12,874 nt of DNA from the NCBI GenBank assembly GCA_024511395.1, contig JANELJ010000025.1:1-12874 (forward strand), read 5' to 3'. This stretch comes from Gammaproteobacteria bacterium (GTDB lineage Bacteria; Pseudomonadota; Gammaproteobacteria; GRL18). Shown here piece by piece: positions 1 to 12,874 of the stretch (the first letter of the stretch is position 1; each line of letters starts with the position of its first letter). Under the pieces are notes generated by a model. That model ran no database searches. It was not told the DNA's origin and saw only the letters and a program-made list of their open reading frames with translations. A program made the translations under genes and the position numbers.

Positions 1-121
1 ATGTTGCAGTTTACATGAGGTATTACAACCTGGAAAGACTGCATTCAGCAAATGGTGATCAGTCACCAATTAACTATGAAAATTCTCTAAAAAAAGTATC
101 CGGTTGGACTTGACCAGTACA
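1..121 (+). mobile_element. Right end of an IS3-family insertion sequence (runs off the left edge)
   Basis: This is the 3' end of an IS3-type element, recognised from the transposase C-terminus at 3-113. The transposase stop (TGA, 111-113) lies within the presumed right terminal repeat. The element probably ends at the CA dinucleotide at 120-121, because the reading frame of a different (IS256-type) transposase resumes at exactly 122. IS3 elements usually end in CA and often have the stop codon inside the right repeat, which fits. The left end is outside the window, so neither the inverted repeat pair nor the 3-4 bp target duplication can be checked here. Confidence 0.7.
3..113 (+). CDS. IS3-family transposase (OrfB), C-terminal 36 codons only
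   Basis: Frame 3 reads V-A-V-Y-M-R-Y-Y-N-L-E-R-L-H-S-A-N-G-D-Q and continues SPINYENSLKKVSGWT before a stop. The string YYN-x-ERLHSA-N-G-x-x-SP-x-x-YE is the hallmark C-terminus of IS3-family OrfB integrase-like transposases, just after the last catalytic Glu of the DDE triad. The DDE residues themselves lie to the left of the window, so it cannot be told whether the copy is intact or broken. The frame is open to the left edge. The assignment to IS3 is strong; the subgroup is not determined. Confidence 0.82.
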   Translation, partial: VAVYMRYYNLERLHSANGDQSPINYENSLKKVSGWT

Positions 122-514: not shown

Positions 515-1042
515 ATGGGCATCAGCCTGAATCAGAATATTATTTTAATTGGTCCAATGGGGGCCGGTAAAACTACCATAGGCCGTCAAATTGCTCGTGT
601 ATTTAATTTTGATTTTTATGACAGTGATAGGGAAATCGAACAGCGAACAGGGGCTTCTATTCCCTTGATTTTTGAACTGGAAGGTGAAGAGGGTTTTCGT
701 AAGCGTGAACAGGATATTATTACGGAACTGACCAGTAAAAAGAAAATAGTACTGGCTACCGGTGGTGGTGCCGTTTTAAGAGAGGCCAATCAAAAAGCCC
801 TTAAAGCCTCAGGGACAGTGGTGTATCTATGTGCCAGTCTGGACGATCTGCTTGAGCGAACCTCTAAAGATAAAAACCGCCCCTTGCTGCAGACCGCTAA
901 CCCGCGTGAAAAATTACAAAACATAATAACCGAACGTGATCCCATTTATCGACAATTAGCTGATATAATACTTGAAACCAATAAAATGACGGTTCATACC
1001 GCCGTTAAACGCTTAGAGGAGTTAATTAGCGCTGAGCGTTGA
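515..1042 (+). CDS. aroK: Shikimate kinase I
   Basis: This cytoplasmic enzyme phosphorylates shikimate with ATP to shikimate 3-phosphate, the fifth step of the chorismate pathway. At 175 residues it has the normal length for the family. Visible motifs are the P-loop GPMGAGKT (13-20), the shikimate-binding Y-D-S-D around 35-38, Arg62 in FRKRE, the glycine motif GGG at 83-85, the lid arginine Arg122 in NRPLL, and Arg141 in ERDPIY. The ATG at 515 is the only reasonable start, since an in-frame stop lies at 488-490. The Shine-Dalgarno is weak (GGGA at 500-503, 11 bases away). Its last codons and TGA stop are made of the degenerate heptamer repeat that follows (GCTGAGC GTTGAGC...), which gives the ending S-A-E-R. 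It is followed by aroB after a 67-base spacer, presumably in one transcript. Confidence 0.96.
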   Translation: MGISLNQNIILIGPMGAGKTTIGRQIARVFNFDFYDSDREIEQRTGASIPLIFELEGEEGFRKREQDIITELTSKKKIVLATGGGAVLREANQKALKASGTVVYLCASLDDLLERTSKDKNRPLLQTANPREKLQNIITERDPIYRQLADIILETNKMTVHTAVKRLEELISAER

Positions 1043-1100
1043 GCGTTGAGCGCTGAGATTTATTTATTATCTGAACGCTGAATGCTGAACGCTGAACGCT
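1031..1100 (+). repeat. Heptamer repeat array 1 (degenerate), aroK-aroB spacer
   Basis: There are two blocks of the same seven-base unit. At 1031-1058 it reads GCTGAGC, GTTGAGC, GTTGAGC, GCTGAGA. After a 12-base AT-rich gap comes a block at 1071-1100 with units GCTGAAT, GCTGAAC, GCTGAAC and partial units at each side. The consensus GCTGAAC is the same unit, in the same orientation, as the two perfect arrays at 2222-2313 and 12766-12874. Variants with G for A or T for C are confined to this array, so it looks older or decayed. It covers the aroK stop codon and ends nine bases before the aroB ATG. Confidence 0.9.
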
Positions 1101-1109
1101 CTGTTTTTT

Positions 1110-2204
1110 ATGATTACATTAAATGTTGATTTAGGTGAACGCAGTTATCCTATTTTTATCGGGCAGGAGATTCTCGGTGATCCTGCTCTGTTATCACTCT
1201 ATATAGCGGGTAAGCAGGTTGTTGTTGTTACCAATGAAACAATAGCACCTTTGTATCTGGAAAAAACACTTAGTGGTCTGACAGACTATCAGTGTGAAAC
1301 GGTTATTCTGCCTGACGGTGAAGTTTATAAAACCTGGGAAGGCATTATGCCTGTTATTGACCGGCTTATGGAAAAGCAGTTTGATCGCCGGGTCACCCTT
1401 ATTACCCTTGGCGGTGGTGTTATTGGTGATATGACTGGGTTTGCTGCGGCTATTTATCGACGTGGTGTAAATTTTATCCAGATCCCAACAACCCTACTAG
1501 CCCAGGTAGATTCTTCCGTAGGCGGTAAAACCGGTGTAAACCATCCTCTGGGCAAGAATATGATAGGCGCTTTTCACCAGCCCCAGTGCGTTATTGCCGA
1601 TACCAATACCCTGAACACCCTGGACGAACGTCAACTCAGCGCCGGACTGGCAGAAGTGATTAAATATGCCCTCATCAACAGTCGCGAGTTTTTTACCTGG
1701 TTGTCTGACAATATATCACGACTGGTACAGAGAGAGTCGGAAGCGCTGGCCTATGCCATTGAATTTTCCTGTCAGGACAAGGCTGATATTGTCACTGCCG
1801 ATGAAAAAGAAGCCGGGCAAAGGGCCTTATTAAACCTTGGCCATACCTTTGGCCATGCCATAGAAACGGCACTGGGATACGGCAACTGTTTACATGGGGA
1901 AGCGGTAGCCATTGGTATGGTTATGGCCGCTGATTTATCCGTCAGGCACGGCTGGATAACTAATGAAGTACAGCAGCAAATCAGTACACTAATTAAACAG
2001 GCTAATCTTCCAGTGACTATTCCAAGAGATACCGATGCTCGTATTACTGCTGAGCAGTTTCTCAGCCTGATGGCCGGTGACAAAAAAGTACTGGACGGAC
2101 AATTACACCTGGTATTAATAAAAGAACTGGGACAAAGCTTTATCACAGCCGATTTTGACATAGACAAGCTAAACGAAACAATAAAAGCTTTTGCTACAGC
2201 CTGA
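1110..2204 (+). CDS. aroB: 3-dehydroquinate synthase
   Basis: AroB converts DAHP to 3-dehydroquinate, the second step of the shikimate pathway, using NAD and a divalent metal in the cytoplasm. The 364 residues match the usual length. Key signatures are the NAD-binding [11 protein letters not shown] (101-111), [20 protein letters not shown] (126-145) and [10 protein letters not shown] (149-158), and the metal ligands Glu182 (in AGLAEVIKY), His245 (NLGHTFGH) and His262 (LHGEA). The ATG at 1110 gives the expected N-terminus; an in-frame TGA of the repeat array lies at 1086-1088. Unusually, no Shine-Dalgarno is visible: the start follows the repeat array and CTGTTTTTT. It pairs with aroK in the usual aroK-aroB order and is followed by a spacer that is mostly heptamer repeat. 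Confidence 0.97.
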
Positions 2205-2221
2205 AAAAATACCATAATAAT

Positions 2222-2313
2222 TGAACGCTGAACGCTGAACGCTGAACGCTGAACGCTGAACGCTGAACGCTGAACGCTGAACGCTGAACGCTGAACGCTG
2301 AACGCTGAACGCT
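2222..2313 (+). repeat. Heptamer repeat array 2: 13 perfect copies of GAACGCT, aroB-damX spacer
   Basis: Bases 2223-2313 are exactly 13 uninterrupted copies of GAACGCT, with one extra matching T at 2222. The array fills most of the 133-base gap between the aroB stop (2202-2204) and the next start (2338), leaving 13 bases before the Shine-Dalgarno GGAG at 2327-2330. As seven is not a multiple of three, 21 bases of + strand contain a TGA in every frame, so ribosomes cannot read through. The opposite strand (GCGTTCA) has no stop codon in any frame. The perfect identity of copies indicates recent expansion or ongoing homogenisation. Confidence 0.98.
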
Positions 2314-2337
2314 TTTAACCCTACATGGAGTTAACCT

Positions 2338-5172
2338 GTGCCGCACCTAGATAACCTTGGTCTGAAAGACAATCCTTTTAAAAAAAATAATGATTATCGT
2401 TATTATTATGCCGATCAAAATCGGGCTCAGATCATGGAAGCTACCGAACACCAGATAGAGTTTTCCAGTAATGTACAGGTTATTATCGGTGCCCAGGGTA
2501 TGGGTAAGTCACACTTACTAAATACTCTGGCACACCGCCTGGATAATAACTGGCGTATTGCCACAATTCAGGTTAATGAACAGGTAGACACTTTATCCTT
2601 AATCCATGAGATTCTGGAAGTCTTTGGCGGGAAGATAAAATCAGGTGAAGAGCTGCTTGAAGCCCTGGAAAATCAGTTAAGTGATATCCTGCAACTGGGT
2701 TTTAAACCGGTGCTGTTTCTGGATAATGCCCACCATCTTTCTGTTGATTCCATACGTTTTCTACTACAGCTCTCCCAGCAACAACAGGATGATAAACATT
2801 ATATTAAAATTGTCCTGTTTGCCGGTACGGAAATCACAGAGAGCCTGCAGTCATCTGAGTTCAGACCTTTTCGGGATGCTATTCATATTGCTCACCTGGA
2901 AGCACTGGATAAAGAAGGGGTTTCAGGTTATTTGAGACATAAACTGGCTATTGTCGGTTTTGATAGGGAATCGCCTTTTACACCCCGTATTATTGATAGT
3001 ATTTTTAAAGATTCTCAGGGAATACCGGAAAAAGTTGATTTTTATGCTAATAAATTTCTGGCCTCCAGCGGCAAGGCGGCAGACTACATTACCGAGGATA
3101 AATCAGGTACAACAGAGTCCGTGGCAGTACAGGATGAGGCATTATGGCAGGAAGCTGATATACAGGATGATCGTATTGAGCAGGCCGAACAACAGCTAAA
3201 TCGCCTGACTGAAAAATTTGATGAAATCGAGAAACTGACAGAACCGGCTTCCCATAACGGGGATTTTAATGAAAGTAAAGAGGACAGCTATAATTCTGAG
3301 GTGCCTGATTTTTTAAGCTCCATTGAAGAAAATGAACCGCCTCAACCAGCTTCTGTTTTATCCCGCATGATGATCCCCGGTGCTGTTGTTGCTATTGTCG
3401 TAGTGGCGGTAGTTGTCATTTTTAGCGTTTTTAATCATTCGTCAGATTCGACACAAAGTAAGCAGTTGACTGAAGCAGAACAAATAGAATTACTTCCCCT
3501 GGAACTACCGGTACAAAATGATAATTCGGTAGTCAATAATACCGAGGAACAGAACGCTTCATCCACACAGTTTGATGCCGATTCAGTTAAAAATAAGGAA
3601 ACGAAAAAGGAATTAAATGCACCAGTTCCCATGCAGGAAAAAACTATTGCACAGGAAGTTAACCAGCTTCCGGAATTGTCTGAACCAGTAGATACCTCTA
3701 AACCGCTTCTGGTTGAAAAACCAGAGCAGAAGAAAGTGCAACAGAAGGCAGAAACCGCTGCTAGTAAATCCTTATCAGATCAGACTGCAGCCCAGAATTC
3801 GAATAATGCTATGCAGGTCGAACCTTCATCGGTTGCAGGCATTCCAGAACTTAAATCTGTAGAACCAGAACCGGTTATTGGCTCCAATAAGCGCCAGACT
3901 ATTACTATTCTCGGCCGTAAGCTTCAGCCGAACAGCCGACTCATTGTCTCTTGGGGAGAAAACAGCAAGACTTTTTCAGCGAATCTGACACCGGATCAAT
4001 GGCATTATATTAATAGCAATAAAGTAAAACTGCAGTTGACTACCGGTATAGAAACGCAGACCTGGCAGGTAATTGCAGAAAACCCTGGAGGGCAGCGCTC
4101 CAGTGAGCTTGTTTTTGATGTAGTTAAACCTTTTATTGCTAGTATGGCAATAAAAGCCATTGCACCTGAGCCTGTTGTAGGCAGTAATAAACGTCAGGTT
4201 ATTACAATTAAAGGACAGGGGTTTACGCCAAAGACAGTCATAGAATTAAAATGGGATAAAAATAATAAACATTTTTCATCCAGTTTATTGCCTGAGCAGT
4301 TTAAATATATCAGTAGCAATGAAGTTCGTCTGTATATTACAACAGGTACCCAGGAAAGAAAGTGGAAAGTAACGGCAAAAGAGCCTCAAAGCGGGGCAAC
4401 AAGCCATTTTTCATTTACAGTAAGAAATCAGCTTAAAGAAAAGCAGAAAACTAAAATCGCCAGCACACCGGTTTCCTCTCAAATTAAACAGGAGTCGTGG
4501 ATTAGCCAGCAGCCGGACAGTGCTTATACTGTTCAGTTATTCAGCTCCTACGAACAGCAGGCGATTGAACGATTTGTTCAGAAATATGCTTTGCAGGGTA
4601 ATATTGCCCGTTTTGTCAGTCAAAGGGATGGAAAAACCTGGTTTAGCCTGATTTACGGTTCATTTGCAACAAAACCGGCGGCAGAAAAGGCAGTTTCAGG
4701 ATTAAATCCGCAATTGCGTAAAACCAAGCCCTGGATAAGAACATTTGCCAGTATTAAATTGCAATTAGCGGAAAATAAAAAGACCGCTGCTACAGTAAAT
4801 TCCAAAATCACTAAAGCCAGACCTGATTCAGTGCCAGTAAATAGTTCTGGCTCTGTCTCTAAAGCTGTTTCTAAAACAAAAGACGAAGCTTGGATATGGA
4901 CTCAGAGTCCGGACGATTATACCCTGCAGCTGGTTGCCTTAAGCAATGAAAGCAGTATTAAAGCCTATATCTCCAGATATCATCGGGCTGATCAGGCTGT
5001 GTATTTTAAATACATAAAAAACGGTAAGCCCTTATATATTCTTATTTACGGAAGCTATGTGAAGAAGTCTTCAGCAGAACAGGCTGCACAGCAACTGAAA
5101 GGCAAAATTTCCGGCAGTAAACCCTGGATCAGACGTTTTTCTGATATCCACAATATGATGACAGTTCAATAA
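2338..5172 (+). CDS. damX: DamX-type cell-division protein: ATPase, one membrane span, two Ig-like repeats, two SPOR domains
   Basis: The GTG start at 2338 is supported by GGAG at 2327-2330, seven bases away. The 944-residue product has, in order, several parts. First is an ExeA/AAA-like ATPase with P-loop GAQGMGKS (51-58) and Walker B-like VLFLDNAH (125-132), where Asn follows the Asp in place of the usual Glu. Then come a charged, possibly coiled segment (~275-300), a single hydrophobic span (~347-366), a polar Glu/Gln/Ser-rich linker (~367-500), two homologous beta-rich Ig-like repeats (~505-597 and 604-695) each with PEPV-x-GSNKRQ, and two SPOR-like domains (~728-805 and 859-937) each with YT-x-QL, LIYGS and KPWIR-x-F. 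SPOR domains bind denuded septal peptidoglycan. The topology implies a cytoplasmic ATPase and a periplasmic C-terminus. DamX-type genes are typical after aroB. E. coli DamX, as I recall, is about 430 residues with one SPOR domain and no ATPase; ATPase-bearing versions occur in other gammaproteobacteria. The Ig-like pair and SPOR duplication are unusual. The gene name is by position and SPOR/ATPase content. Confidence 0.85.
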   Translation: MPHLDNLGLKDNPFKKNNDYRYYYADQNRAQIMEATEHQIEFSSNVQVIIGAQGMGKSHLLNTLAHRLDNNWRIATIQVNEQVDTLSLIHEILEVFGGKIKSGEELLEALENQLSDILQLGFKPVLFLDNAHHLSVDSIRFLLQLSQQQQDDKHYIKIVLFAGTEITESLQSSEFRPFRDAIHIAHLEALDKEGVSGYLRHKLAIVGFDRESPFTPRIIDSIFKDSQGIPEKVDFYANKFLASSGKAADYITEDKSGTTESVAVQDEALWQEADIQDDRIEQAEQQLNRLTEKFDEIEKLTEPASHNGDFNESKEDSYNSEVPDFLSSIEENEPPQPASVLSRMMIPGAVVAIVVVAVVVIFSVFNHSSDSTQSKQLTEAEQIELLPLELPVQNDNSVVNNTEEQNASSTQFDADSVKNKETKKELNAPVPMQEKTIAQEVNQLPELSEPVDTSKPLLVEKPEQKKVQQKAETAASKSLSDQTAAQNSNNAMQVEPSSVAGIPELKSVEPEPVIGSNKRQTITILGRKLQPNSRLIVSWGENSKTFSANLTPDQWHYINSNKVKLQLTTGIETQTWQVIAENPGGQRSSELVFDVVKPFIASMAIKAIAPEPVVGSNKRQVITIKGQGFTPKTVIELKWDKNNKHFSSSLLPEQFKYISSNEVRLYITTGTQERKWKVTAKEPQSGATSHFSFTVRNQLKEKQKTKIASTPVSSQIKQESWISQQPDSAYTVQLFSSYEQQAIERFVQKYALQGNIARFVSQRDGKTWFSLIYGSFATKPAAEKAVSGLNPQLRKTKPWIRTFASIKLQLAENKKTAATVNSKITKARPDSVPVNSSGSVSKAVSKTKDEAWIWTQSPDDYTLQLVALSNESSIKAYISRYHRADQAVYFKYIKNGKPLYILIYGSYVKKSSAEQAAQQLKGKISGSKPWIRRFSDIHNMMTVQ

Positions 5173-5174
5173 GC

Positions 5175-5207
5175 GTATAAGTAACGATGGCACTCTGTTA
5201 CTTATAC
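5175..5207 (+). other. Stem-loop just after the damX-like gene
   Basis: GTATAAGTAAC at 5175-5185 is perfectly complementary to GTTACTTATAC at 5197-5207, an 11-bp stem with an 11-base loop. It begins three bases after the stop codon (TAA, 5170-5172). The stem is AT-rich and is followed by CAGCC, not by a T run, so it is not a classical intrinsic terminator. It may protect the 3' end of the upstream message or work with Rho. Confidence 0.5.
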
Positions 5208-5242
5208 CAGCCATGATACCCTCTTCTCGGCATTTCCATATC

Positions 5243-5271
5243 TAGACCAAATCCTTATGACAGGGTATAAT
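5243..5271 (+). promoter_or_regulatory. Probable sigma-70 promoter for gltBD
   Basis: A perfect -10 box TATAAT lies at 5266-5271 with TAGACC (four of six to TTGACA) at 5243-5248 and the ideal 17-base spacer. Transcription would start near 5278, giving a leader of about 165 bases before the gltB ATG at 5443. It lies after the damX-like gene and its stem-loop, so glutamate synthase probably has its own transcription unit here. The promoter overlaps an ATG at 5257 that would otherwise extend gltB, which argues against that start. Confidence 0.6.
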
Positions 5272-5292
5272 GTCTGGCTCTTTCGACCCTGT
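5260..5292 (+). promoter_or_regulatory. Inverted repeat around the gltB -10 box (possible operator)
   Basis: ACAGGGT at 5260-5266 and ACCCTGT at 5286-5292 form a perfect 7-bp inverted repeat separated by 19 bases. It brackets the -10 hexamer and the predicted start point, a position where a repressor could act. The right half lies in the transcribed leader. No known consensus (such as Lrp or NtrC) is recognised, and an inverted repeat this short can occur by chance. Confidence 0.25.
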
Positions 5293-5432
5293 ACGGCTGA
5301 AATAAACCTTCTTTTTGTCTGGTTAAAGGCTGTTTACCCGGCTAAAGGCTTTTTTTCTGGTAAATGCCTAGAAGAAGAATACGACTCGAAAAGCGGGTTG
5401 AGGCGTTTTAATATTCACAATTTCTATCAATT

Positions 5433-5436
5433 GAGG
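5433..5436 (+). promoter_or_regulatory. Shine-Dalgarno that fixes the gltB start
   Basis: GAGG at 5433-5436 lies six bases before the ATG at 5443, an ideal spacing. The upstream in-frame ATG at 5257 has no ribosome site and sits between the -35 and -10 boxes of the likely promoter. The 62 codons between them (rich in Phe, Leu, Cys) do not resemble GltB N-termini. Confidence 0.75.
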
Positions 5437-5442
5437 CCTGTA

Positions 5443-8400
5443 ATGCCAATATTTGAAACACAACATCACACACACGTTCAGCATAATGCTCCGAAAGTGC
5501 TGCAAGATACTCTCTATCAATCTTCATTTGAAAAAGATAATTGCGGTTTTGGTCTGATTGCCCATATGGATGGTGCTAACAGCCACTGGCTGGTGGATAC
5601 GGCCATTAAGGCGCTGGCGCGTTTAACCCATCGTGGTGCGATTTCTGCCGATGGTAAAACAGGTGATGGTTGTGGTTTGTTATTACAGAAGCCTGATGCA
5701 CTGATGCGTGCTGTGGCCCAGGAACAGGGCTTTGAACTGGCGGAAAACTATGCCGTGGGCGTGGTTTTTCTAAGTCAGGATAAAGCGGCAGCGGAAACGG
5801 CCAGAACTCAGTTGAACAAAGAACTGGAGGCAGAAGGCCTGCAGGTGGCCGGCTGGCGTGTAGTACCAGTGGATGAAAGTGCCTGTGGTGATGAAGCGCT
5901 TAAATCACTGCCTCAAATCGAACACATTTTTATTAATCCAGCCGAAGGCATGGATCCAGCAACCTTTGACCGGCACCTGTACATTGCACGTCGCCGTACG
6001 GAAAAAGCCATTCAGGACAATGACGAGGTGTTTTATATTCCGTCCATGAGTTCCCTAGTGGTTTCCTATAAAGGTCTGGTTATGCCGGAATTTCTGCCGG
6101 TTTTTTATAAAGACTTAAACGATGAGCGCGTGGCAACCGGCATGTGTGTATTTCACCAGCGGTTTTCTACCAATACCTGGCCTCAATGGCGTCTGGCTCA
6201 GCCGTTCCGCTACCTGGCCCATAATGGTGAAATTAATACCGTACAGGGTAATCGTAACTGGTCAGTGGCTCGCGGTCATAAATTTGAAACGCCCTTAATT
6301 CCGAATATGGAAGATATTCGTCCGCTGGTTTCCATGAGTGGTTCTGACTCCAATAGTATGGATAATATGCTGGAAGCACTGCTGGCCGGCGGTATGGATA
6401 TTTTCCGTGCCATGCGCCTGTTAATTCCGCCCGCATGGCAGAATGTGGATAATCTGGATGCCGATCTGAAAGCCTTTTATGAATACAACTCCATGCATAT
6501 GGAAGCTTGGGATGGGCCGGCCGGTGTGGTTATGACTGACGGCCGTTATGCGGCCTGTACTCTGGACAGAAACGGTCTGCGTCCGGCCCGTTATGTGATT
6601 ACTAATAATCCTCATGGCCAGGACGGTCTTAAGGATGTTACTTATTCCGGCTGCGTCATTACCTTGGCATCTGAAACTGGCGTCTATGATTATGCAGAAA
6701 CCGATGTAGTAGCCAAGGGGCGGCTTAAGCCTGGCCAGATGCTGGCGGCTGACACCCACACTGGTGAGCTGATGCTGCCCGATGATGTGGACGAACATCT
6801 TAAAAACCGCCAGCCATATAAAGAGTGGTTAAATAAGGGCATCAAGTACCTTAAATCAGAACTGATTGAGCCCTCTTCTGTAGTCGGCTGTATGAATGAT
6901 GAAACCTTTAAGGTGTATGAAAAGCAGTTTCAGATCACCAATGAAGAAAAAGAATACGTTATTAAGGTACTGGCTGAAAATGCTGCGGAAGCCGTGGGTT
7001 CCATGGGGGATGACACCCCTATGGCGGTACTTTCCAGTCGGGTAAGACCTTTTTATGATTATTTCCGTCAGCAGTTTGCCCAGGTCACTAATCCGCCAAT
7101 CGACCCTATTCGTGAAAGCATTGTCATGTCCCTGGAAACCTGTCTGGGGGCAGAACAGAATCTGTTTGAAGAAACCGCTGAACATGCCAGCCGTCTGCTG
7201 GTGGATTCACCTGTACTGTCCTATGCCAAGTATGAAAATCTGATCAATATGGATGATCCGGCTTATGCCAATGAAATCATCAATCTGAACTATGATCCTC
7301 AGTTAAGTCTTAAAACAGCCCTGACCAATGTCTGTGAACAGGCAGAACAGGCCATTAGAAACGGCAATGTAATTATTGTACTTAATGACAAAGCACTGTC
7401 TAAGGATAAAATTACCATTCATGCTTTAATGGCTACTAGTGCGGTACACCATCACCTGATTGCCAGAGGTCTGCGCTGCGATGCTAATATTATTGTTAAA
7501 ACCGGTACCGCACGGGATCCCCATCATTTTGCCACCCTGATAGGCTATGGTGCGTCTGCGGTTTATCCTTATATGGCTTATGAAACCCTAGCCAAGCTTA
7601 TAGAACATAAGGAAATTGAAGACTGTGATATCGGTAAGGCAACCAAGGCCTATCGTAAGGGCATTAATAAGGGGCTGTACAAGGTAATGTCCAAGATGGG
7701 CATTTCCACCATTGCCAGTTATCGAGGTTCCCAGTTATTTGAAGCCATTGGTATTGATGAAGAAGTCACCGAAATGTGTTTTAAGGGCACCACCAGCCGC
7801 CTAGCCGGTGCCGGCTTTGAAGATTTTGAAAGTGACCAGCGCTTCCTCAACAAGATTGCCTGGAACCCCCGTAAAAATAATGATCACGGTGGTATTTACC
7901 GTTATGTTCATGGTGGTGAATACCATGCCTATAATCCTGATGTGGTTCAGTATATGCAGCAGGCAGTACAGAGCGGGGATTACAATGCCTATAAAAAATA
8001 TGCTGATGAAGTAAATATGCGGCCCATTGCTACTTTGCGTGATTTACTAAAAGTGCGTGAGGATATTGAGCCTATTGCCATAGATGAAGTGGAACCAGCC
8101 GAAGCACTGTATAAACGCTTTGACAGTGCCGCCATGTCTTTGGGTGCACTGTCACCTGAAGCCCATGAAACCCTGGCAGAAGCTATGAATCGTTTGGGCG
8201 CCCGTTCCAATTCCGGTGAGGGCGGTGAAGATCCGGCCCGTTACAATACCGTAAAAGTGTCCAAGATCAAGCAGATTGCCTCCGGACGTTTCGGCGTCAC
8301 ACCCCATTACTTGGTGAATGCTGAAGTGCTGCAAATTAAAATCGCCCAAGGCGCCAAGCCCGGAGAAGGCGGTCAGCTGCCCGGCCACAAGGTGGATGAG

Positions 8401-9993
8401 AACATTGCCCGTCAGCGTTATTCTGTGCCTGGTGTCACTCTGATTTCACCACCACCGCATCATGATATATACTCCATTGAGGATTTATCCCAGTTAATCT
8501 ACGACCTGAAACAGGTCAATCCTGATGCACTGGTTTCCGTTAAACTGGTTTCCGAACCGGGTGTGGGTACTATTGCGGCTGGTGTAGCCAAGGCCTATGC
8601 TGACTTAATTACCATTTCAGGATATGACGGCGGTACTGCGGCCAGTCCTCTGGCTTCAGTTAAATACGCCGGTTCTCCCTGGGAGCTGGGACTGAGTGAA
8701 ACTCAGCAGGTCTTATGTGCCAATGATCTGCGCGGTAAAATCCGTCTGCAGACTGATGGTGGTTTAAAGACCGGCCTGGATATTGTTAAGGCCGCCATTT
8801 TAGGGGCAGAAAGCTTTGGTTTTGGTACTGCACCTATGATTGCCATGGGCTGTAAATACCTGCGCATCTGTCACCTTAATACCTGTGCCATGGGTGTGGC
8901 CACTCAGAATAATATTCTGCGCATGAACCATTTTATCGGTAAAGTGGAAATAGTGATGAACTACTTTAAGTTTGTGGCTCAAGAAACCCGTGAATGGATG
9001 GCTTCTTTAGGTGTCTCCAGGCTGGAAGATCTGATAGGTCGTACTGACTTACTGGAAATACTGGAAGGTCAGACCAACCGTCAGAGCCGTCTGGACTTAA
9101 CACCCTTATTAAAAACTATTGATGATGACAGCAAGCCCCGCTACTGTATAGAGCCGAAAAATGAGCCTTATGATAAGGGCGAAACGGCAGAGAAAATGGT
9201 GGCTGATATACTGCCGGCGATTGAAAGCCAGTCTGGTGGTACCTTTGAATATGAGGTGCAGAATACCGATCGTTCAATCGGTGCCCGTCTGTCCGGTGAA
9301 ATTGCCAAACGCTATGGCAACCTAGGCATGTGTGAAAACCCCATTACTGTTAAGATGAAAGGTTCTGCCGGTCAGAGTCTGGGTGTCTGGAATGCCGGTG
9401 GTCTGCATCTGGAAGTGGAAGGTGATGCCAATGACTATGTAGGCAAAGGCATGGCCGGTGGACGCATTGTCCTGTTCCCGGCCTGCGGAACCAGCTTTAA
9501 AACCAATGAAGCCGCTATTATCGGTAATACCTGTCTCTATGGTGCCACCGGCGGTAAACTGCTAGCGGCCGGTCTGGCCGGTGAACGTTTCGGGGTCAGA
9601 AACTCCGGGACTCATGCGGTTGTTGAAGGCATTGGTGATCATGGCTGTGAATATATGACCGGCGGTGTTATTACCGTACTGGGTGAAACCGGACTGAACT
9701 TTGGTGCCGGTATGACTGGTGGGTTTGCCTATGTGCTGGATTTGTATAATAACTTTGTGGATCGTTATAACCATGAGTTAATTGATATTAACCGCATCAA
9801 TAACGAAACCATGGAAGCTCATTGCCATTATCTGAAGGGTAAAATTGAGGAGTTTGTCCAGACCACAGGCAGTGAATGGGGTCAGCATATTCTGGATAAT
9901 TTTGCTGATATGAGCGGTAAGTTCTGGCTGGTCAAGCCCAAGGCGGCTTCCATTGACAGCCTGCTGGAAACACTGTCCACTGAAGCGGCCTGA
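5443..9993 (+). CDS. gltB: Glutamate synthase (NADPH) large subunit
   Basis: The GltB subunit takes the amide nitrogen of glutamine and, with electrons from GltD, converts 2-oxoglutarate to glutamate. From ATG 5443 the product has 1516 residues, normal for the family; a longer frame from 5257 is open but is rejected because it overlaps the promoter. The N-terminal glutaminase domain starts at the catalytic Cys34 ([11 protein letters not shown]), so ~33 residues would be removed as a propeptide, as known for GltB. Further motifs are [18 protein letters not shown], the [14 protein letters not shown] loop, the FMN-barrel stretch ([32 protein letters not shown]), and the 3Fe-4S cysteines C-x5-C-x4-C at 1137, 1143 and 1148. 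The C-terminal glycine-rich beta-helix is at ~1330-1450. gltD follows after 86 bases. No broken motif is seen. Confidence 0.97.
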
Positions 9994-10070
9994 ACAGAAC
10001 CATCGGCATACAGAAACTAAATTTATGATGGCGGAACAGCAAGTGAGCCGCATCAAGCGCTACTACTTAA

Positions 10071-11480
<1,410 letters not shown>

Positions 11481-11513
11481 ATCATCTCGGTATTGACTGG
11501 GTGACCGTGCATA

Positions 11514-11550
11514 TACACCCTCTCCCTCTGGGAGAGGGCAGGGTGAGGGC
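11514..11550 (+). repeat. REP-like GC-rich palindrome between gltD and hemE
   Basis: CCCTCTCCC (11518-11526) and GGGAGAGGG (11530-11538) form a perfect 9-bp stem with a TCT loop, followed by CAGGGTGAGGG. An outer CACCC/GGGTG pair (11516-11520 and 11541-11545) offers an alternative, extended pairing. This run of CCCTCTCCC/GGGAGAGGG with a flanking GGGTGAGGG is a motif I know as a widely dispersed extragenic palindrome in proteobacterial genomes. It stands out as GC-rich against its surroundings. A T run (TTTTTT, 11560-11565) lies about 20 bases downstream, so termination or attenuation before hemE is possible but not convincing. Confidence 0.65.
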
Positions 11551-11585
11551 CTCCTTCAATTTTTTAATCTGCCGGAGCAGAATTA

Positions 11586-12659
11586 ATGACTGAACTAAAA
11601 AACGATCGTTTCCTGAAAGCCTTATTACGTGAGCCTGTAGACATGACTCCTGTGTGGATGATGCGCCAGGCCGGTCGTTATTTACCAGAATACCGGGCTA
11701 CCCGAGAAAAAGCTGGCAGTTTTATGGATTTATGTATGAATCCGGAACTGGCCTGTGAAGTGACTATCCAGCCTCTGGAACGTTATCCTCTGGACGCAGC
11801 CATCCTGTTTTCTGATATTCTGACCATACCTGATGCCATGGGACTGCAGCTGCGTTTCACCCATGGTGAAGGCCCAAAGTTCGACAAGCCCATTACCTGC
11901 AAGGCCGATGTGGATGCTTTAGGTATTCCTGATTCGGAAGGGGAGTTAAAGTATGTTATGGATGCGGTACGCACCATCCGCAGAGAACTCAATGGTAGAG
12001 TGCCCTTAATCGGTTTTTCCGGCAGTCCCTGGACACTGGCCACTTATATGGTTGAAGGCGGCTCAACCAAGGAATTCGGCAAAGTCAAAGGCATAATGTT
12101 TGATGAGCCACAAACCATGCATAAATTACTGGGCACTCTGGCCCAGTCGGTAACCTCCTACCTTAACGCCCAGATAGCCGCCGGTGCTCAGGCGGTGATG
12201 ATCTTTGATACCTGGGGCGGTGTATTAACGCCAAGAGATTACAAAGAATTTTCCCTGACCTATATGCAGCAGATTGTGGAAGCTCTGACCCGTGAAAATG
12301 ACGGCCGTAAAGTACCCGTTGTACTCTTTTCCAAAGGCGCCGGCGGCTGGCTGAAAGAAATGGCTCAGACCGGCTGTGATGCATTAGGTGTGGACTGGAC
12401 CATGGATCTGGCTGACGCCAGAGCCATGGTCGGGGACAAAGTCGCCTTACAGGGTAATATGGACCCCAGCATCCTGTATGCCAAACCGGAACGCATTGAA
12501 GAAGAAGTCAAAACCGTCCTGGCCAGCTACGGCAAAGGCAATGGCCACGTCTTTAACCTGGGTCATGGTATTCATCAGCATATTGACCCGGAACGGGTCG
12601 GGGTGTTTATTAATGCGGTGCATGAGTATAGTAAGCGGTATCATGAAGAGCAGGGTTAG
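11586..12659 (+). CDS. hemE: Uroporphyrinogen decarboxylase
   Basis: HemE removes four carboxyl groups from uroporphyrinogen III to make coproporphyrinogen III in haem synthesis, in the cytoplasm and without a cofactor. The 357 residues match the family. The signature [16 protein letters not shown] (22-37) carries Arg27 and Arg31; also visible are Asp77 in LFSDIL (the catalytic Asp), Tyr154 in TYMVEGG, Asp208 in IFDTWGG, and His327 in FNLGHGI. GGAG at 11574-11577 lies eight bases before the ATG. It follows gltD by 105 bases that hold a REP-like palindrome, an order also found in Pseudomonas. No intrinsic terminator is seen right after it; the next 106 bases are AT-rich and lead to the third heptamer array. 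Confidence 0.97.
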
Positions 12660-12665
12660 AAGAGC

Positions 12666-12674
12666 AGCGTTCAG
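12666..12674 (-). repeat. Single inverted copy of the heptamer repeat after hemE
   Basis: AGCGTTCAG at 12666-12674 is the exact reverse complement of CTGAACGCT, nine bases of the heptamer register. It is the only inverted copy noticed in the window and lies seven bases after the hemE stop, 91 bases before the long direct array. In RNA it could pair with any unit of that array. A nine-base match by chance is possible, but its location is suggestive. Confidence 0.5.
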
Positions 12675-12765
12675 AAAGAGCCAGAGCAACAGAATTTATC
12701 TTTAAGTTAGTACAAAATATTTTGATATTTTACTTGACTGAAGAAAAAAAGAATTTAAACTTTTT

Positions 12766-12874
12766 GCTGAACGCTGAACGCTGAACGCTGAACGCTGAAC
12801 GCTGAACGCTGAACGCTGAACGCTGAACGCTGAACGCTGAACGCTGAACGCTGAACGCTGAACGCTGAACGCTG
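12766..12874 (+). repeat. Heptamer repeat array 3: at least 15 perfect copies, runs off the right edge
   Basis: From 12766 to the end of the window the sequence is an uninterrupted run of GCTGAAC, 109 bases or about 15.6 units, with no variant base. Unit and orientation are the same as in the array between aroB and the damX-like gene (GAACGCT in another register). It begins after a T run (TTTTT, 12761-12765) and is 106 bases after the hemE stop. True length is unknown because the window ends inside it. Confidence 0.98.

Follow-up and report, generated by a model that had tools for sequence, protein, structure and literature searches.

The 12,874-nt stretch analysed here (the window) makes up contig 217 of a gammaproteobacterial draft genome (genome handle G000; 2.26 Mb, 407 contigs), and it carries three tandem arrays of the seven-base word GAACGCT (Table 1). 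We propose, with a probability of about 0.55, that they are heptamer microsatellites seated on dispersed hairpins at the 3' ends of genes, and that the long ones lie at predicted transcription starts, where array length would set the length of RNA leaders. Comparison of sequences across the genus establishes the dispersal of the family, its hairpin form, its positions, a conserved promoter-like pair and the turnover of the unit. Intergenic heptamer arrays are known; the cassette, the promoter link and the word turnover described below are new.

The GAACGCT family in the genome and beyond

An earlier note on the window had described three GAACGCT arrays, two of them perfect runs of 13 and at least 15 copies. 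Tandem-repeat detection recovered all three, including both perfect runs, and a two-unit GAACGCT pattern (at most 2 mismatches) matched 30 times in the window, 29 times in arrays and once in an inverted arm, while 200 shuffles of the window gave a mean of 0.06 and a maximum of 1 match. The same note had placed the arrays with a visible downstream gene just before its start, and this is where they end: array 1 lies 9 bp before the start codon of aroB and array 2 lies 24 bp before that of a damX-like gene. Array 3 has no gene downstream within the contig; lengths of arrays at contig ends are assembly-limited, and three such arrays end at exactly 121 bp.

Array ends were counted as two GAACGCT units followed by a non-G base, a count that arrays running off a contig end may escape. 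The source genome has 16 of them and its congeners G003, G002, G005, G001 and G004 have 46, 12, 10, 4 and 2, respectively; the sister-genus genomes G018 and G022 have 10 and 5. A recurring family, as the earlier note had suspected, is thereby upheld, the possibility that only these three arrays exist is excluded, and the cassette terminating in array 3 is shown to be dispersed. An assembly artefact is unlikely, since the same sites carry arrays of other copy numbers in separate congener assemblies.

Three tandem GAACGCT units were found in 7 of 57 genomes, the source genome included, and in 1 of the 398 genomes of a phylum sample, namely the source genome alone; the backward control pattern was absent from both sets. 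By the phylum sample, GAACGCT is special to this family. A scan of a collection of about 85,000 genomes, in which taxon counts are lower bounds, placed three-unit arrays, among the matches listed, in records titled Sulfurovum, Bacteroidetes, Acidobacteria, Nitrospirae, Fermentibacteria and others, as if the word had spread horizontally between phyla. We set this explanation aside as highly improbable, given the single genome in the phylum sample and the dissimilar flanks: flanks and neighbouring words differ by taxon (judged by eye; no alignment was made), and recurrence among so many genomes may reflect independent origin. As separate observations, a GAACGCT array is present in at least two viral contigs, a Fermentibacteria contig (L074:15-175) has a 46-bp tandem unit that itself holds three GAACGCT units, and two Sulfurovum records (L072 and L114) share a common sequence upstream of their GAACGCT arrays, so this taxon may own an array-bearing repeat.

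Gene-edge polarity and paired arms

The view that all arrays stand in coding orientation, with fixed coding-strand polarity as a rule, did not hold. Inverted units occur within the window itself (Table 1), and on the contigs of the whole source genome the two-unit pattern is found 89 times forward and 105 times reverse. Random orientation is likewise excluded: polarity follows gene edges and paired arms instead of coding direction. With genes called by a simple open reading frame caller in the stretches in hand, the inverted unit AGCGTTC reads away from the nearer gene edge in 43 of 53 single arrays lying at most 60 bp from a gene (p 6e-6). Within 12 bp of a gene edge, 32 of 34 single arrays obey this rule, 27 at stop codons and 5 at starts, and the two exceptions are both at stop codons. 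Among 18 sites sampled in the source genome, 10 have a stop codon at most 12 bp away, with AGCGTTC reading away from it. Gene-edge polarity is explained by inverted arms at gene ends, which produce it.

A survey of six genomes of the genus yielded 82 distinct sites, none inside a called gene. Where both neighbours were called (44 sites), 16 pairs were convergent, 27 codirectional and 1 divergent, as compared with 50, 211 and 61 for ordinary gaps in the same stretches (p 4e-4). Stop codons are the nearer edge for 29 of the 34 close single arrays, and a general translation-start role was set aside on this majority. It also tells against binding of a post-transcriptional regulator to the leaders, the explanation proposed for TAACTGA in Beggiatoaceae; that reading would suit array 2 and some congener arrays, which are found 25-33 nt ahead of a start codon and run in the coding direction. 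As the word moreover differs between close relatives at the same leader, we regard regulator-binding leaders as quite improbable.

The paired arms are clearest between aroK and aroB, where 1024-1110, holding both arms, folds at -36.5 kcal/mol (z -5.7) and the inverted left arm overlaps the aroK stop codon (1040-1042); the corresponding hairpin of G004, built of CGACTTA, reaches z -8.4. Across 38 non-overlapping elements, 30 arm pairs are Watson-Crick at the variable position, where shuffling within genomes predicts 24.8 (p 0.001), and 13 of 17 are so in G002 and G005 only (p 0.002). These counts replace an earlier one of 60 pairs, in which some elements had been entered on both strands.

A minimal palindrome in G001 (L366) is predicted to be a terminator on both strands. 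Read outward from 69 arm ends, the outer flanks are rich in T (39%, versus 21% A); GCTCTT occurs in 25 of these flanks and a run of at least four T in 29%. Judged from these sequence features, a terminator origin is supported for part of the family only.

A dispersed cassette with a promoter-like core

With 12673-12775 as the query, 52 matches were found in 6 of 13 genomes (13 in G000, 1 in G001, 12 in G002, 13 in G003, 1 weak match in G004 and 12 in G005), and none in the seven sister-genus genomes searched. In G000, 7 of the 13 matches are near full length (at least 100 of 103 positions) and the others are partial. The 30 matches read with flanks begin with a left arm, which is followed by the core (about 95 bp) and then by an array of 1 to at least 17 units. 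The left arm, directly after a stop codon in most copies, has 1-4 units in copies other than that of the window, and in many copies the array is followed by GCTCTT and then by the stop of a convergent gene. Both neighbours were called at 17 of 29 cassette loci, and 15 of these 17 are convergent. Most copies pair AGCGTTC with GAACGCT and AGCGYTG with CAACGCT, with exceptions such as C83 in G005.

When 33 distinct copies were aligned, 31 kept a sigma-70-like pair, TTGnnn-15/17-TAnAnT, with a spacing of 16 in 29. In the window this pair faces array 3 (Table 1), and a promoter scan of the region gave 2 promoter-like sites versus 0.5 expected. Near-identical dispersed copies, inverted ends and the absence of a gene recall miniature inverted-repeat transposable elements; the core, at 103 bases, leaves no room for a transposase. 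In a check for target-site duplications, congeners keep a minimal palindrome at two loci, hence there is no clean empty site.

Promoter-like sequences upstream of long arrays

Grouping by similarity of the upstream sequence, whereby cassette copies count about once, was applied to arrays of GAACGCT and six related words, which were then scored with a sigma-70 matrix. An upstream score at p<0.05 was obtained for 7 of 12 long classes (at least 8 units) and for none of 19 short ones (fewer than 5 units; rank test p 2e-4), while the opposite side of long arrays gave 0 of 11 classes. Under an earlier, looser grouping the figures had been 10 of 15 for long classes and 1 of 22 for short ones; we rely on the stricter grouping. 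A TANNNT hexamer ending 2-6 nt ahead of the array is present in all 12 long classes, in 8 of the 14 middle ones and in 5 of the 19 short ones; the controls gave 3 of 11 (opposite side) and 1 of 12 (shifted positions). We treat this enrichment as a lead only. Of the 12 sister-genus rows for which sufficient sequence upstream was available, 5 agree with the promoter link, some rows being the same place twice. For array 2, shuffling the same 50 bases gives p 0.024 for the weak pair listed in Table 1, and the hexamer test accepts a hexamer other than CATAAT.

Table 1. Array units, inverted arms and promoter-like sequences of the window
Feature	Position	Strand	Description
Array 1	1073-1100	+	GAACGCT GAATGCT GAACGCT GAACGCT; 4 units, one mismatch; tandem-repeat detection
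Array 2	2222-2313	+	92 bp, 13.1 perfect GAACGCT units; tandem-repeat detection
Array 3	12766-12874	+	109 bp, at least 15.6 perfect GAACGCT units; ends with the contig
Inverted left arm of the aroK-aroB hairpin	1028-1057	-	AGCGCTG AGCGTTG AGCGTTG AGCGCTG AG; sequence, tandem repeat
Single inverted unit, left arm of the cassette	12666-12672	-	AGCGTTC, directly after the hemE stop (12657-12659)
Promoter-like pair, weak	2191-2218	+	TTGCTA-16-CATAAT, ends 3 nt before array 2
Cassette core	12673-12765	+	Dispersed copies in the genus
Sigma-70-like pair	12734-12761	+	TTGACT-16-TAAACT in the cassette core, facing array 3

Turnover of the word at orthologous sites

Orthologous sites keep a period of seven bases but not the word itself, and the replacement often affects both arms. 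The spacer between aroB and the damX-like gene holds 13 units of GAACGCT in G000, 11 of GAACGCT in G002 and 11 of TTAACAC in G005, two GAACGCT followed by changed units in G001, and two TTAATAC in G004. A strong hairpin is found in 9 of the 20 aroK-aroB spacers of the family; its right arm is GAACGCT in G000, G001, G002, G005 and also G018, CGACTTA in G004, and another sequence in each of G012, G016 and G017. Downstream of hemE, G005 has seven units of CAACGCT, G001 four TTAACGC-like units, G004 a short form and G003 only a left arm within the stretch read. A further locus shows three words in G003, G005 and G002, and its arms agree at the variable position. Two loci have a large element in some congeners and a minimal palindrome or remnant in others, a difference that may reflect either gain or loss of the element. 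A role that needs the exact word GAACGCT is unlikely, because orthologous sites carry other heptamers.

Three side observations concern the same sites and words. Upstream of hemE, G001 and G004 (L257 and L258) have arrays of the related words AAGACTT and CAAGACT, which G000, G003 and G005 lack. In the sister-genus genome G015, the spacer between aroB and the damX-like gene (L204) contains a long inverted repeat with a folding energy of -77.2 kcal/mol. TTAACAC is a second word, with arrays directly before GAACGCT or CAACGCT arrays at L185, L342, L067, L107 and L325.

Drift and homogenisation of words in place are also what neutral microsatellites would show, if polymerases favour seven-base slippage and if hairpin and promoter positions mark only where arrays are tolerated. 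The period itself points the same way. In 249 kb of unselected contigs of the genus there are 4 arrays of period 7 (none in G000, three in G004 and one in G005) versus 0 for periods 5, 6 and 8-15, with 14 of period 4, and in 499 kb of flanks from other taxa there are 18 versus at most 4 for other periods. In 296 kb of three sister-genus genomes, period 7 has one array, period 11 four and period 4 23. Unselected contigs of the genus and sister genus hold the further heptamers TTGATGG, GACTTAT, CCGACTA and CTTAACA, and two other G004 contigs hold GGGTTGA, GAGTCTT and CTTACGA. A slippage proposal is given in the accessible text of PMC4679880, citing Mrazek 2007. However, drift alone explains neither one word with common arms at dozens of unlinked sites nor the dispersed core and the one-sided promoter link, and we consider a purely neutral origin possible and clearly less probable than heptamer microsatellites on dispersed hairpins.

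A model for the arrays

In the model that we favour, the arrays would be heptamer microsatellites carried by, or grown within, small dispersed intergenic elements. The basic element would be a stem-loop close to stop codons, in many cases flanked by convergent genes, and the seven-base word would make up its two arms; some minimal forms (AAGAGCAGCG...CGCTGCTCTT) look like intrinsic terminators for both directions. The cassette would form a subfamily in which the left arm is followed by a core, about 95 bp in length and bearing an outward sigma-70-like promoter, and the core by an array that is usually long. RNA synthesis from this promoter would begin in the first array units and, at convergent sites, would run antisense into the neighbouring gene; other long arrays of the genus follow -10-like sequences unrelated to that of the cassette. 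Slippage would alter copy number, seven bases at a time, and mutations in a unit would spread through the array, the other arm of a hairpin tending to follow. Array length would then most probably determine how long an RNA leader is, as for the damX-like gene, or how long an antisense RNA to a convergent gene is, and either expression would be tuned or the array merely tolerated. Transcription, slippage, termination and tuning are the steps that we infer.

Several results weigh against this model. Array 2 does not fold (z +2.3) and so has no hairpin part, and the stretch of inverted unit, core and array 3 folds only moderately (z -2.4, with 5 of 200 shuffles as good). At the variable position, 8 of the 38 arm pairs are not Watson-Crick, and the aroK-aroB hairpin is not strictly conserved, being absent or weak in 11 of 20 spacers. 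No terminator was predicted for the minimal palindrome of G005 (L365), nor for the cassette itself in a scan limited to loops of 3-8. With regard to the promoter link, 5 of the 12 long classes miss p<0.05; the TANNNT motif was chosen after the sequences had been seen, and in about 4 of the 12 long classes the hexamer is contained in a common arm sequence, TAnGCT(C/T)TTT. Outside the family, 0 of 28 arrays show the link (3 of 28 on the control side); only three of these 28 arrays have at least 8 units.

Relation to known heptamer repeats

With tandem units above chance, a mainly intergenic location and one word at many sites, the family belongs among the bacterial intergenic heptamer repeats. 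Among the papers listed in searches of the open-licence PMC literature, we recognised no description of GAACGCT as a repeat or of a dispersed promoter-heptamer cassette, and a search on heptamers together with terminators found no paper. The string GAACGCT occurs in 3,220 papers there, of which the 20 listed appear unrelated, judged by title and opening of the abstract. The available text of PMC4692102 describes GGGAATC of Xanthomonas as dispersed intergenic arrays, 186 and 183 in two genomes with 70 and 75 inverted pairs, nearer the upstream gene and few between divergent genes. The GAACGCT family resembles this repeat and GGGGA(C/T)T of Nostoc in being dispersed, intergenic, present in inverted pairs, placed closer to the upstream gene and rare between divergent genes, but differs from both, which are G-rich and studied as quadruplexes; its promoter-bearing core and word swap at orthologous sites have no counterpart noted in that text (PMC4692102).

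TAACTGA of marine Beggiatoaceae is described, in the accessible part of PMC4679880, in two to six copies, mostly forward and just before start codons, with one inverted repeat; the same text attributes heptamer abundance to Mrazek 2007. Both are intergenic heptamers of sulfur bacteria, sporadic in other phyla, with one dominant word per genome, but the GAACGCT family is dominated by stop-codon sites, paired arms and long arrays (PMC4679880). It is not of the TAACTGA type, the word being GAACGCT and the close single arrays lying mostly at stops, not starts. Geobacter metallireducens has dispersed multicopy heptamer elements of four or five units per site, of which the MTYCTGA class is drawn as strands looping back; they have other words, and no promoter link is noted in the portion of PMC2700814 at hand.

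The promoter link recalls hmw1A of Haemophilus influenzae, where, by the available text of PMC8262952, a heptamer array abuts the -10 box and is transcribed into the 5' leader, and copy number tunes expression. Here too arrays stand directly behind a -10 box, by prediction only; unlike the paralogous adhesin loci, with their measured effect, GAACGCT arrays occur at many unrelated genes (PMC8262952). The word turnover recalls the P6b stem of the cyanobacterial tRNA-Leu intron, whose paired seven-nucleotide repeats, as the part of PMC4476775 in hand recounts, had their word replaced several times with the stem kept; that stem belongs to one intron, whereas GAACGCT forms a dispersed family.

Other features of the window

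NCBIfam models above their cut-offs named aroK, aroB, gltB, gltD (gamma family) and hemE in the window. The gene at 2338-5172 encodes a 944-amino-acid protein with SPOR and AAA domains; its DamX match is sub-threshold (47 bits versus a cut-off of 256), hence "damX-like". Rfam had no match in the window. Frame 3 of positions 3-113 (+) reads ...YYNLERLHSANGDQSPINYENSLKKVSGWT*, which resembles an IS3-type transposase tail. A strong, perfect-looking hairpin lies at 366-408 (AACAGGCTGGCTTATC...GATAAGCCAGCCTGTT), and 341-430 folds at -39.4 kcal/mol. Upstream of hemE, a palindrome-like sequence at 11518-11552 (CCCTCTCCCTCTGGGAGAGGGCAGGGTGAGGG) is lacking in the upstream stretches read for G003 and G005.

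Implications

Heptamer repeats are over-represented in bacterial genomes for no accepted reason, as cited in the available texts of PMC4679880 and PMC4692102. The genus provides a natural series for this problem, with the same sites in several species and differing words, copy numbers and hairpin sizes, and the cassette puts long arrays behind a conserved promoter-like sequence. We also entertain, as an improbable extension, that the cassette is mobile and, with its promoter and heptamers, seeds arrays of variable copy number at transcription starts across the genome, and that (GAACGCU)n RNA from cassettes could pair with AGCGUUC arms in the 3' ends of many mRNAs; if true, such pairing would explain why a single word is common to the whole genome and is replaced in a concerted way from one species to another. 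It can now be tested whether arrays grow preferentially at transcription starts and whether their length adjusts the expression of many genes together.

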